Source: Prototheca cutis (lineage: Eukaryota > Chlorophyta > Trebouxiophyceae > Chlorellales > Chlorellaceae). From it: 64,000 bases of DNA. A model generated the notes under the pieces. That model made no database searches. It was not told the origin of the DNA and was given only the letters and a program-made list of their open reading frames with translations. Position 1 is the stretch's first letter; each line of letters begins with the position of its first letter. The stretch lies in the NCBI GenBank assembly GCA_002897115.2, contig BCIH01000005.1:1489377-1553376 (forward strand), given 5' to 3'. The translations under genes and the position numbers were made by a program. Below are positions 54,113 to 64,000 of the stretch, piece after piece.

Positions 54113-58897
<4,785 letters not shown>

Positions 58898-59219
58898 TGG
58901 GACGGCTCGCCTTCAAGCACGAGCTCCCTGCCGCGTCCGAATGCACTTTAACAGCGTCATTCTCAACATTGATTCAATGACATATGAATGCAGCTCGTTT
59001 GGTATTGCCGCGATGTCATGACCCGCGAGGCGATTGCTTGCATGTGGTGCGAGATGATTGCCGGGGCCGTCGACCTGCACATGCAGAGGAGCGCTCCCCG
59101 CCTTGGGGCGCCCGCTGCTTGATGAGAGCAGCCCGGTATCGTGCAGGGCAAGCATTCTGTTATTTATTGCGTCATTTGCGGGACAGTAAGCGAACCAAAC
59201 TGTGCATGGCCAGGCGGCA
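58898..59219. promoter_or_regulatory. Divergent promoter, FtsHi (-) / small membrane protein-DPH4 locus (+)
   Basis: 322 bp between opposed starts. The plus-strand leader must begin here and may include the 5-codon uORF at 59206. No other coding block is recognised. Confidence 0.5.
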
Positions 59220-59223
59220 ATGA
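59206..59223 (+). other. Five-codon upstream ORF overlapping the next start (ATGA)
   Basis: ATG GCC AGG CGG CAA TGA. Its stop codon overlaps ATG 59220 as ATGA. Whether it is in the mRNA depends on the unknown transcription start. Confidence 0.5.
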
Positions 59224-59571
59224 CGGGTCCTGCCACCTCGCTGGGATGGAAGCCATGGGCTGCCGTGGGGATCATGCTCTGGGCGGCTGCGCTGCAGGTA
59301 CCCGGCGTTTCTGTGGGTGTGTGTGCGTCTGGGTTTGGGACTTGGAGGCTCTTCGATGCGGCACCCGATACGTTTTGGGGCATGCTGACCCCAGGACCAT
59401 GCCAATCTACCATGCCCATCTGGGCGGCCACGTCTCAGAATCTCTCCCCCCCCACTCAACACGCAGTATAACATGTGGAAGATCGAGAAGACTTCGGAAT
59501 TTCAGGAAAAGTTCAATGCTGATGACGCGCCAACCCTGTCGGTGCAGCTAAAATCCGGCCGCAGCGGGTGA
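59220..59571 (+). CDS. 60-residue single-pass membrane protein, unknown function
   Basis: I do not recognise this family. Exons are 59220-59297 and 59467-59571, joined in phase 0. The first exon encodes a short polar start and a hydrophobic helix (WKPWAAVGIMLWAAALQ). The second encodes a soluble tail starting YNMWKIEKTSEFQEKF with charged, then Ser/Gly residues. Size and layout resemble accessory subunits or assembly factors of mitochondrial inner-membrane complexes, but that is only a guess. Its TGA (59569-59571) is 14 nt before the DPH4 ATG, in a different reading frame, so it is neither a DPH4 exon nor a fusion. It could be the first cistron of a dicistronic mRNA. Confidence 0.6.
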
Positions 59572-59585
59572 GCCACTCGGTGCCC

Positions 59586-60035
59586 ATGGAACCCGCCGAT
59601 CACTACGCCACTCTGGGCATTGGCCCCGGCTGCGATGCTGCTGCATTGAGGGCAGCCTACCGCGCGCGTGTGCTGACCCTCCACCCTGACAAGGCCGCGG
59701 GCACCGGCGGCAGTGGGCCGGGCGAGGGCCCAGCCGGCGCCGACTGGGAGGCAGTGCAGCGCGCCTGGGCCGTCCTGCGCGACCCCGGCAGCCGTGCCGC
59801 CTACGACGCGGCGCGCGCCCTGGCGGAGCGTCGCGGCATGCACGTGCAAGTGCATGCGCGGCTGCAGGCAGCGGAGATGGCGATGGAGGAGGGCGCCGAT
59901 GGTCGGATCGTGCTGACGCACCCCTGTCGCTGCGGCGACGCCTTCCGGTTGGACCTCGAGGAAGCTGGGGAGCCGGAGAGTATCTTACTGGTTCCCTGTG
60001 CCTCCTGCTCCCTGTTTGCCCAGGTGCACACCTGA
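59586..60035 (+). CDS. DPH4: Diphthamide biosynthesis protein DPH4 (J domain + CSL zinc finger)
   Basis: DPH4 (DNAJC24) is a J protein needed for making diphthamide on elongation factor 2; its zinc finger can bind iron and serve the Fe-S enzyme Dph1-Dph2. It is a single exon of 149 residues. The J domain begins at once (MEPADHYATLGIGPG), has TLHPDKAAG with the HPD triad and ends DPGSRAAYDAA. The CSL-type zinc finger follows: HPCRCGDAFRLD and LLVPCASCSLFAQ, with the four Cys in place. ATG 59586 is the natural start because the J domain follows directly; the in-frame codon at 59568 is GTG. No intron or separate promoter space exists upstream, as the previous ORF ends 14 nt away. Confidence 0.93.
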   Translation: MEPADHYATLGIGPGCDAAALRAAYRARVLTLHPDKAAGTGGSGPGEGPAGADWEAVQRAWAVLRDPGSRAAYDAARALAERRGMHVQVHARLQAAEMAMEEGADGRIVLTHPCRCGDAFRLDLEEAGEPESILLVPCASCSLFAQVHT

Positions 60036-60483
60036 ACCAGGAGTGGGGGGTATGGAGGCGTGCTGCCATCTGTGCGGGGCTGCTGGGACGTGGCAGTGGC
60101 CCGACCAAGGAAGTGCCGAGGCCAGGGCGTGCCTTCCTGAGCAGAGCTGCGGTGTTGAAGAACAGACATTTCACACCTCCTGCATGCTGGCTTCCTTTGG
60201 TGTGGCCTGCTTACTTGAACAATTTGTGCCGCACATGTGGTGCTGGCGTGGTTGGCCTCTCCACGTCACGTCACGTCACGTCACGGGGTGTGCTCCCACC
60301 CTGGCATCCCCCCCCAAACCCCCGCCAACAAGCCAGCACCGGAAGAAGATGTTCATCTGCATTGATTGGCGCAGAAGTCTCTCGGGCCCATCTACCTGCA
60401 GCAGAGCTTTATTCAGTATTGCCAAACGACATTTGGTAGTGTGATGTAATTGTTCAAAGGAGCAAGGCAGCTGCTAGGCAAAA
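60036..60483. promoter_or_regulatory. Intergenic, DPH4 3' side / CHCH gene promoter
   Basis: Tandem plus-strand spacer. It contains the CACGT pentamer array at 60262-60285. No coding block is recognised. Confidence 0.5.
60262..60285. repeat. CACGT pentamer tandem array
   Basis: CACGT repeated 4.8 times, giving overlapping ACGTCA/TGACGT cores about 200 bp upstream of the CHCH-gene ATG. TGACGT is a classic bZIP (CRE/TGA) core; a regulatory role is inference. Confidence 0.8.
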
Positions 60484-60954
60484 ATGTGGTGGCCTTTCGG
60501 ACCGTCCGCGCCGGCAGTGACGGAGGAGCAGCGGGCACGACTCAAGCGGCGATGCGGTCTCAAGGTTGCCACACTGCGCAACTGCTTGGCCGCAAACAAG
60601 GACAATCCCGATGCATGCACAAGCGTGGAGGTTCAGGTGGGCGGGGTGGCGCATCGCGCGTAATGTGTTGCTGCCAAATGGGGATGCACTGCCTTCCCTT
60701 GGGTGACAGGACCTTGTGGCCAGGGTGGGTTGGAAATCCCCAGAACCTCGACGACCTACTGCGCACCCCGCACACAGGTCACGCACTGCTATGCAGAGGT
60801 CATGGATCCAGAGCAGGCCGCCAAGTTTGAGGCGTGCTTCAGGAAAGTGGTGAACAGCAGAGGCAAGGTGCCATACGACTCCTGCCAGGCCCACATCGAT
60901 GACATGCAAGCCACGCTCAAGAAGCAAAAGCTCTTCCCCTTTGTGGAGAAATAA
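60484..60954 (+). CDS. Twin-CX9C (CHCH) protein
   Basis: Small protein of the mitochondrial intermembrane-space type imported by Mia40 and folded by two disulfides. Two exons, 60484-60636 and 60778-60954, encode 109 residues; the junction is TSVEVQ|VTHCYAE. The twin CX9C pattern is exact: Cys24-x9-Cys34 (CGLKVATLRNC) and Cys45-x9-Cys55 (CTSVEVQVTHC), with the second motif formed only after splicing, which supports the model. Two more Cys follow (FEACFRK, YDSCQAH). The C terminus is basic and helical (MQATLKKQKLFPF). There is no presequence, as usual for this class. I cannot assign it to a named CHCH family (COX assembly and related). Confidence 0.82.
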
Positions 60955-61041
60955 AATGCGGTTACATGTGTATGTGCTCTCTCGTCACACTGCACTTTTC
61001 TTGCACTGCTTGTAGAATTTCCCCTCGGAGCTAGGGGTTCC

Positions 61042-64000
61042 TCAGTCCAGCGTGTACCCGGCTGCCGTTGCTCCTCGCTGCTGCCGCACCACGGTCCGCT
61101 TGGGCCCCTGCTGCGCGGCGGTGCCGGTTTTTGCCGGACGCTTCTTGCTGCTCGCCTGCACCAGTGATGGCCTTTCACTGCAGCGTTTGTGTGTGTGGGT
61201 GTGGGGTGTGTGTGTGTGTGTGTGTCAATTCGCGGACAGTTTATGCAGGAAGTGGATTTCCAGGGCAGAAGCAGATGGCTCGGTGCGCATGCACCCGCCA
61301 AGTCCCCTCTCCCAAAGCACGGCCATCGTGCGTACCTGAGGGCAAAGCTGTGGGCTACATGGCCCAGATGCAGGCGCTTGACATGGAAGATGTCCTTGAT
61401 GGCGGCAGGGTAGGCAGCGTAGGCCCGGACCCACGACCTGAACGCGGCGGCGGCCAGCGCGGCGAGCGTCTTGTCCCCGGCGACCATGCTCATGAGCGCA
61501 TGCTGCAGCGCCTGCGCCCCGCGGTGTCGCTCGAGGGGGACCTGCGCCCCCGGTTTGCCCGCGCGTCGGTCCCACCCCAGTGCATCGTCCAGCAGACGGG
61601 CCGCGTCCATCGCCCGGGGCCGGATGCCCTGCGCAGCCAGCAGGTCCAGAAAGCCCGCCTCGCCCGGTGCCAAAAGGAGAACGGCCTCCCCCGCCGCGCC
61701 GCCACGGCCCGCGCGCCCCACACGGTGCACGTACTCCTCGAAACTGGCCGGCGCGTCGACCTGCACGACGGCGGTGACCCCGGGAAAATCGAGGCCACGA
61801 GCGGCGACGTCCGTGCACAGCAGCACGCCGCGCTGCGCACGCATGAACTCTGCAAACGCCCGGTTCCGAGACACCTGGTCCATGTCACCGTGCAGCTTCA
61901 TGACGGGTGGTGTGCTTCGCGATTTTTTTTCCTGGCGGTGGCCGCCGTCAGCGGCATCATCGTCGCTGTCCCTGTCACTCTCGTCAACATCAGAGGCCGA
62001 TTCCATGCCGTCATCAGCACCCGCGCCGTCCGGCCCGGCGACAGAGGCCAGAGCCCCGTTCCAGGCATGCTGCAACAAAGCGTGCACAAACTCCACCGAG
62101 TCACGGGTGGACAGGAAGACCAGCAGGCGTGCGTGGGGCGCCCGCAACCGCGCCCGCAGCAGGCCCGCCAATGCCACGAGCCGAAGCTTGACAGGGACCT
62201 GTTTGTGTGCATTGGTGACGTGGCAGTTGAGTTGGTCGGGATTCCCTCGTTACGGGCCGATGCATGGCAGCATTCACTATTCCACGCTTGCTTGAAAGAA
62301 GACACAGGGGTCGCCTTGCTGGTCTTATTGACAACCAACACACCACCACAAGGGCCCATGGAGCAGGCACATCCCCAAGATGGACAGTGCATGCCCAAGC
62401 ACAAGCGCCGCACCTCGATGCAAAACTGGCGGATCTGGGTGGGGATCTCAAACTTGGCATTCGCAGCAGGGGCGGCAGCATCGTCGCCGTCTTTGGGCGC
62501 CGTGCCATCGTCCGGCTCCGCGTCATGCAAGCCTGCAAGCCAGCAGAAGGGGTGGTATCGTATCATGTTCTACATGGGACTGAATGTGGCCAGTGGGGTC
62601 TGTGCTGTGAAGAAAGAAAGACAGCACAGCATGCAAACAGCCCATGTCCCCGCAAGGCCCAAGGCACTTGCCGATGAGTTCTGGGGACTTCAAGCTGAGC
62701 GACGCAAACTGCTTGATCCGACTGCTGAGCGTCGCAGACAGGAGCGCCGTCGTTCGCCGGTGGCCGGCTGCCGCCTTGCCATCCAGCAAACCAAGGATCT
62801 CCGCTGTAAAGGAAAGAAAGTGCGGAGTTTGGTCGGCTTGGAGGCAACCCATTCAGACACAGTGGTCAGGGTACAGAGCAAATACAGCATTGCTGTGCAG
62901 CTGGAAAGACTCTTGATACGGATGTCTCTTCTGGCCCAGTCATGCATCACCAACTTGCCGCTCATCTCAGCAGGAGACACCCCTCCTCTAAGTTGAAATA
63001 CCCACATAGTTTTTGTTGAAAGCCCAGGTCCAGCAGCCTGTCCGCCTCGTCCAGCACCAGCCAGCTCAGGTTCTCCGCCCTGCATGGGGTGGAAGCGAGG
63101 TGCAAGTCTCACATACGGGGCACAAGTGACAGCACATTTGAAAAGTACACATGCATCTGGTGCTACAGTGCTGCAGTGTGCTGGCAACCTGTCAAAGCCA
63201 TCGTACATGAAGGCCTCTGTGTTCTGTAGGTGATCCAGCAGCCTGCCTGGTGTGGCGATGAGGATGGACACGCCTTTGCGAAGTCTCGCCTTTTCCCGGC
63301 TCCGACTCTCCCCGCCGTGCACGCTGCTGCCCACCTGCACGTGTGTGGGTGGGGGTGTGTTGGGGTGGGGGATGATGGGGTCTGGCTGGGTAGGCAGGCG
63401 GGCAGGCAGGTGGGTCAGGCAGGGTGACAAAGCACATCCTGAGCAAGCCGCACATTCCAAAAGTGACGCAGCATGGCTTGCACTTCCGCCAATGGCCGAC
63501 CAGCTGCCACCATGATGCGTACCAGCCAGAAGAATCGGCGCAGCAGGCCCGAGAGGACATTCTCCACCTGCATCGCCAGCTCGCGCGTGGGGCAGACAAC
63601 CACGGCCAGTGTGCCCTCGGCCCGGGATACACGCCGTGCACGCTGTGCCAGTGTGTCCACGATCGGAGCAAGGTACGCCAGCGTCTTGCCCGAGCCGGTG
63701 GGAGCCTCCACCAGCGCATCACGCTCGGACTGTTTGTATGGGTGTGGGGTGGTGAATTGTTGTTGCAGGAAGTATATGCACATGGCATTAAAAAATGGTG
63801 AGGGACAGTCGTCAACCATGGCACCAGGCAACCCCCCGTGCTTCAGTACCCTCAAACCACCGCGCCCCTCCCTTCCCATCCACCCCTTCTCAACAACAAC
63901 AGAAACACAAAAAACAGACCAGGAGGACGGGGATTGCATGTGCCTGCACGGCCGAGGGCTTTTCAAAGCCCAGGCTGGCCAGGTGCTTGGCCATGGCCTC
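61042..64000 (-). CDS. DBP7: DEAD-box RNA helicase DBP7/DDX31, 5' end outside window
   Basis: Nucleolar helicase for 60S subunit assembly. Visible exons are 64000-63920, 63729-63523, 63334-63189, 63079-63006, 62803-62672, 62532-62414, 62198-61336 and 61177-61042, all in phase. Motifs in order: Q-motif [79 protein letters not shown] and [10 protein letters not shown]. The [14 protein letters not shown] neighbourhood and the C-terminal [11 protein letters not shown] are typical of DDX31/Dbp7. An acidic Asp/Ser loop is inserted before [13 protein letters not shown]. The tail is basic ([14 protein letters not shown]). The intron after 62672 has a GC donor (GCAAGT). The N-terminal extension is outside the window. 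Confidence 0.94.
61189..61225. repeat. GT-rich tract next to DBP7 last acceptor
   Basis: GT-rich on the plus strand, hence CA-rich on the coding strand, ending just before the CAG acceptor of the last exon at 61178. Confidence 0.85.

Follow-up and report, generated by a model that had tools for sequence, protein, structure and literature searches.

A probable small spliced gene 14 nucleotides ahead of DPH4 in Prototheca cutis, an atypical candidate for a green-algal bicistron

Introduction

Are two open reading frames that lie 14 nucleotides apart on the same strand of a nuclear genome expressed from one mRNA, and if so, how do ribosomes reach the second? The question is raised by a locus of Prototheca cutis at which a short spliced ORF (ORF1) is followed by DPH4. 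It lies in a stretch of 64 kb, all of which we call the window, with a G+C content of 0.57-0.68; the genome searched comprised 19.9 Mb in 23 contigs. A preliminary description of the locus proposed a dicistronic gene that couples a membrane protein with DPH4, the latter being translated by leaky scanning or reinitiation.

Bicistronic nuclear loci of green algae were reportedly described by Gallaher et al. in 2021. The 43 bicistronic loci of Auxenochlorella have a median gap of 40 nt between their ORFs, against 2,518 nt between separate colinear genes, a first ORF with a median length of 291 nt, and a first start codon in a weaker context than the second (PMC11892635). In A. protothecoides, the median observed/expected ratio of AUG is 0 within the first ORF and 0.48 ahead of the second, a depletion that is a tendency of the class and no absolute rule (PMC11892635). 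Mutational tests show that the second ORF of these loci is reached mainly by leaky scanning, and one strong-context AUG restored inside the first ORF severely lowered expression of the second in a reporter (PMC11892635).

Results

Layout of the locus

The letters of the region were checked base by base. The coordinates in the preliminary description, its ATGA overlap, spliced ORF1, 14-nt gap and change of frame were all exact. ORF1 encodes 60 amino acids on the plus strand in two exons, the first (59220..59297) with 26 codons and a hydrophobic stretch, the second (59467..59571) with 34 codons and the stop TGA at 59569-59571. The intron between them (59298..59466, plus strand, 169 nt, GTACCC...CACGCAG) has a pyrimidine-rich acceptor and a donor that looks weak by eye. 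Read on in the frame of exon 1, it has a negative coding score (-19.4). DPH4 begins exactly 14 nt after the stop of ORF1, in another frame, and occupies 59586..60035 of the plus strand as a single exon; from one ATG to the other the distance is 366 nt. With the intron retained, ORF1 would become an 83-codon ORF (59220-59471), and 114 nt would then lie between its stop and DPH4.

Two further plus-strand ORFs accompany ORF1. Upstream, a uORF stops at TGA 59221-59223 and thereby overlaps the ATG of ORF1 (59220) as ATGA. It had been called a 5-codon ORF, and such an ORF (59206..59223, MARRQ) is indeed read directly from ATG 59206. The same frame, however, is open farther upstream to ATG 59122, giving 33 codons (59122..59223) in any transcript that starts upstream of 59122; the label "5-codon" is therefore conditional, as the length of the uORF depends on where transcription starts. 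Inside ORF1 and out of its frame, a spliced ORF of 18 codons is nested (59246..59471), of which an inner start at 59255 leaves 15 codons. It stops at 59469-59471, the stop that it would share with the intron-retaining form of ORF1, and 114 nt (59472-59585) remain before the ATG of DPH4.

Upstream, an intergenic gap of about 320 nt separates the locus from a divergent minus-strand gene with coding segments at about 56.5-58.9 kb of the window. An antisense gene over the region was considered and rejected: minus-strand stop-to-stop frames reach 220 aa, yet none of the called coding segments lies on that strand within 58889-61044. The best-ORF search, which accepts only ORFs that stop close to where the searched segment ends, returned no minus-strand ORF from 59190-59585. 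Downstream of DPH4, positions 60484-60954 hold a two-exon gene (spliced by eye) for a CX9C-like protein, with a score of 19.8 bits that is below the cut-off of 26.4, and ACGTC units stand in short tandem upstream of it near 60262-60285. Farther on, 61362-62168 of the minus strand encodes a Helicase_C domain and a C-terminal extension of the SPB4 type.

In one alternative, splicing would join exon 1 in phase to DPH4 by an acceptor before 59565, yielding a DPH4 of 182 aa with the hydrophobic segment in front. One AG in 59300-59585 does allow an open, in-phase join, but it has no preceding pyrimidine tract and a single AG of this kind is unremarkable. No fused form was seen in proteins P0001-P0004, but these were predicted from contigs without splicing and could scarcely be expected to reveal it. 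We regard such a fusion as extremely improbable.

Identity of the downstream gene

By its domains, the downstream ORF is DPH4, as it had been named. The protein of 149 aa is of the DNAJC24 type. A Pfam search found its J domain with HPD (PF00226, 46.3 bits) and a CSL zinc ribbon with the pattern CXC...CXXC (PF05207, 40.5 bits), and the best match among solved structures is human DnaJ homolog C24 (2l6l), aligned to residues 3-146 of the 149. Human DNAJC24 has the same two domains with HPD, and a segment rich in glycine within the J domain was the only notable difference seen. Five proteins passed an E value of 1e-5 with DPH4; the fifth had a J domain only and was left out of the alignment. In the five aligned sequences (DPH4 and four CSL-bearing homologues), HPD at 33-35 and cysteines 114, 116, 138 and 141 are invariant. 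DPH4 is complete and begins at the J domain, like DNAJC24 and the close relative P0001. Pattern matches to DPH4 numbered 94 in genome contigs and 6 in viral contigs, and no relative was confirmed among either.

Elsewhere in the genome, the CSL profile matched two places, the DPH4 locus and a locus on contig C4 that reads as DPH3, and the Diphthamide_syn profile (DPH1/DPH2-type) matched on C8 and C6. Therefore, the diphthamide pathway is present. Searches made exon by exon, in an assembly from which organelle contigs are possibly absent, matched neither Photo_RC (up to an E value of 1) nor chlorophyll a/b-binding proteins (up to an E value of 0.001) in the genome, and in each case one control genome matched. 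Taken with the genome size and the G+C content of the window, these negatives point to a non-photosynthetic alga of the Prototheca type; P. wickerhamii is reported to have 16.7 Mb and 64.5% G+C (PMC7941945).

Coding status of ORF1

When 59190-59585 was searched for the ORF with the highest score, with one intron allowed and a minimum of 50 aa and a stop within the final 60 nt required, the result was precisely the ORF1 model described above. Its codon score was matched by 5 of 5000 dinucleotide shuffles (1 of 300 in a first run) and by 4 of 2000 genomic 396-nt windows that lay clear of all called coding segments with scores above 14; therefore, ORF1 probably codes for protein and is a small spliced gene. 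The codon model came from simple iterative training on 264 kb taken from this genome and used only segments scoring above 40, so that DPH4 entered the training and ORF1 did not. Scored apart, both exons were coding-like, their scores being reached by 0.54% and 0.18% of 5000 stop-free non-coding pieces, a null that is somewhat low because all called coding segments were left out of it.

The homology searches gave ORF1 no relatives. No Pfam family was found by hmmscan even at an E value of 10, no relative appeared in the PDB or in the protein collection searched, and the two matches in its own genome were its own exons. The negatives from the protein collection say little about absence in algae, because spliced genes are missed in unspliced contigs. 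In these searches neither the protein nor the pair was found to be conserved. ORF1 might then be no protein gene at all, but one of several upstream ORFs that arose by chance in a 5′ leader belonging to DPH4, and the weak-looking donor would suit such a leader. The rarity of its codon score in shuffles and genomic windows, and the coding-like usage of both exons separately, make this very unlikely.

A membrane protein had been proposed for ORF1. Its Wimley-White octanol sum is favourable (-6.99), but the best 19-residue Kyte-Doolittle mean is just 1.12, and the usual cut-off for a membrane segment is 1.6. A membrane protein is plausible and only moderately supported, which is weaker than had been stated. 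A likeness of ORF1 to small respiratory-complex subunits was considered and is not put forward here. DUF4538 (MITRAC7-like) was tried as an identity and dropped, given the empty hmmscan result. The only reported genome match of that profile is a MITRAC7-like exon at C3:1175940-1176026, with 23.1 bits under a 27-bit cut-off.

AUG content, start contexts and other signals

ORF1 contains six internal AUGs against 2.3-2.7 expected (observed/expected 2.26-2.59; Poisson P 0.03-0.05). When ORF1 was recoded synonymously with the codon usage of the genome, the mean was 2.9 AUGs, and at least six occurred in 0.5% of 20,000 draws. Of these, four lie out of frame, two of which (59246 and 59255) combine a purine at -3 with G at +4. 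Ahead of DPH4 as a whole, the observed/expected ratio was 1.84-2.81, varying with the leader assumed. The start of ORF1 has G at -3 and A at +4, that of DPH4 C at -3 and G at +4. In a crude start profile, which is unreliable because it was built from 48 computed sites and has no clear preference for a purine at -3, ORF1 fell at the 35th percentile and DPH4, 59246 and 59255 all at the 4th; taken at face value, this ranking contradicts the simple reading of the last three contexts from positions -3 and +4. RNA structure around ORF1 and DPH4 was not unusual (z 0.75).

TGTAA was counted in sense and antisense in 264 kb as a possible poly(A) motif. The counts were 9 to 6 in convergent gaps and 32 to 27 in same-strand gaps, and in divergent gaps the motif stood on the 5′ side by 20 to 10, opposite to what is expected of a 3′ signal. 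Without a clear sense enrichment after genes, the motif neither excludes nor places a poly(A) site between the two ORFs. The one plus-strand TGTAA in 58900-61100 is at 60445, downstream of DPH4.

Comparison with published bicistrons

The ORF1-DPH4 pair, known here from its sequence, shares several traits with the bicistrons of green algae described by Duenas et al. in 2025 (PMC11892635): it is a same-strand tandem with a short first ORF (183 nt, against 450 nt for DPH4), a very short gap (14 nt, compared with the published median given above) and a complete downstream gene. It differs in AUG content, with an excess in ORF1 where the published first ORFs are AUG-poor. Therefore, of the routes that the preliminary description had allowed, leaky scanning is not supported at this locus. 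An ordinary bicistron, with ribosomes leaking past a weak ORF1 start as in Auxenochlorella, would fit the spacing, the size of ORF1 and the lack of G at +4 of its AUG, but it would have to pass six internal AUGs, four of them out of frame and two in the context of purine -3 and G +4, a load rarely reached by synonymous resampling. Since a single strong AUG sufficed to cut the second ORF severely in the published reporter (PMC11892635), we consider this explanation unlikely.

CDC26-TTM3 was tried as a positive-control bicistron. The sole CYTH match sits in an open frame of 865 aa whose N-terminal part, judged by eye, resembles a P-loop kinase of the TTM1/2 kind, and no match to the CDC26 profile turned up in this genome or in 14 control genomes, so that no CDC26-TTM3 control was obtained.

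The main text of the preprint of the bicistron study contains no DPH, diphthamide or DnaJ; its supplementary data sets list bicistronic loci, among which the pair may yet be found, and its conservation search includes Prototheca cutis (PMC11892635). Literature searches found nothing on the ORF1-DPH4 pair among the titles listed under Prototheca and bicistronic. Those for diphthamide, bicistronic and alga gave no match, and DPH4 with Chlamydomonas led only to Arabidopsis J proteins.

A DPH3-phosphatase tandem in the same genome

The DPH3 gene on C4 (78 aa; L002:1322-3289, near 1563291) is followed after 46 nt by the ATG of a same-strand ORF with a Metallophos domain (59 bits; start codon chosen by reading). 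The product of this ORF resembles a purple acid phosphatase, but the N-terminal profile of that family scored 20.2 bits, under its cut-off of 30. Like ORF1-DPH4, the tandem combines a small first ORF, a CSL zinc protein and a short gap on one strand, but here the diphthamide gene is the first ORF, whereas DPH4 is the second of its pair. Both CSL zinc proteins found in the genome, DPH3 and DPH4, thus occur in tight tandems.

Within the DPH3 coding sequence (237 nt) there is just one further AUG, which is in frame, and the gap of 46 nt is free of them. By AUG content alone, the DPH3 pair, unlike ORF1-DPH4, belongs with the leaky-scanning class, which makes DPH3-phosphatase the better candidate bicistron in this respect; it is a single comparison that was met in passing and not sampled. 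The start contexts (A at -3 and A at +4 for DPH3, C at -3 and A at +4 for the phosphatase) do not fit the bicistron class, since that of the second ORF is not the stronger.

Discussion

The best explanation overall, which we hold at about even confidence, is that ORF1 and DPH4 are two real tandem nuclear genes with one main mRNA, on which ORF1 would be the first cistron and DPH4 would be reached by reinitiation. Its first part, a common promoter and mRNA, we think slightly more probable than its absence. The promoter would lie in the gap of about 320 nt shared with the divergent minus-strand gene, and would drive both ORFs on one mRNA, from which ORF1 would be translated first and DPH4 at a low rate. 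The dicistronic arrangement of the preliminary description thus stands as the likeliest reading, given that ORF1 is probably coding, DPH4 is rightly named and the spacing is that of published bicistrons. The route to DPH4 has to be reconsidered, because on one mRNA an AUG-rich ORF1 means that DPH4 needs reinitiation, or else a promoter of its own.

Reinitiation straight from the stop of ORF1 is unfavourable. It declines with the length of the upstream ORF and needs distance for the eIF2 ternary complex to be rebound (PMC5972666), and here 14 nt follow an ORF of 60 codons. Restart so near a stop codon would call for a tethering element, of the sort found in some viral mRNAs (PMC5972666). By the same rules of length and distance, the ORF of 15-18 codons with 114 nt behind it is better placed (PMC5972666). 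Because ORF1 carries six internal AUGs, ribosomes leaking past its start would mostly be captured at 59246 or 59255, would read 15-18 codons and terminate at 59469-59471, and a fraction would rescan the 114 nt to the AUG of DPH4 at 59586. This resembles the reinitiation after short uORFs of the yeast GCN4 type, where a short upstream ORF is likewise followed by a scanning distance of more than 100 nt (PMC5972666). Unlike in the GCN4 model, the short ORF here sits within another coding ORF, and we draw the likeness purely by inference. That DPH4 is reached in this way is a tentative proposal, and we hold it to be rather doubtful.

The most serious competitor is a pair of nested independent transcripts, in which a promoter inside ORF1, in its intron or second exon, serves DPH4, and the ORF1 mRNA is polyadenylated within DPH4 or carries the whole of it in a long 3′ UTR. 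DPH4 would then be made from a short mRNA, to which the AUG-rich ORF1 is irrelevant, and this would account for the missing AUG depletion. Internal promoters yielding shorter isoforms are reported from Auxenochlorella (PMC12636532), and no poly(A) motif argues against such an arrangement here. On the other hand, the promoter must fit in the 366 nt between the two ATGs, and a spacing of 14 nt is typical of published bicistrons (PMC11892635). We give nested transcripts a substantial chance, though one well short of even.

Returning to the preferred reading of one mRNA with reinitiation after the short nested ORF, a further consequence would be that the output of DPH4 follows the level of eIF2 ternary complex by way of an out-of-frame ORF buried in ORF1. 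We think this improbable as matters stand. If true, leaky scanning and stop-start reinitiation would be joined by a third mode, one that would link the translational state of the cell to the modification of eEF2.

In green algae, bicistronic nuclear genes form a recognised class that is open to experiment, and the evidence supports leaky scanning as the principal way to reach the second ORF (PMC11892635). Judged from its layout, ORF1-DPH4 is an atypical candidate member of that class. With the right spacing and an AUG-rich first ORF, it would be a useful outlier, one that either points to another way of reaching the downstream gene or cautions against reading one mRNA from tight spacing alone.
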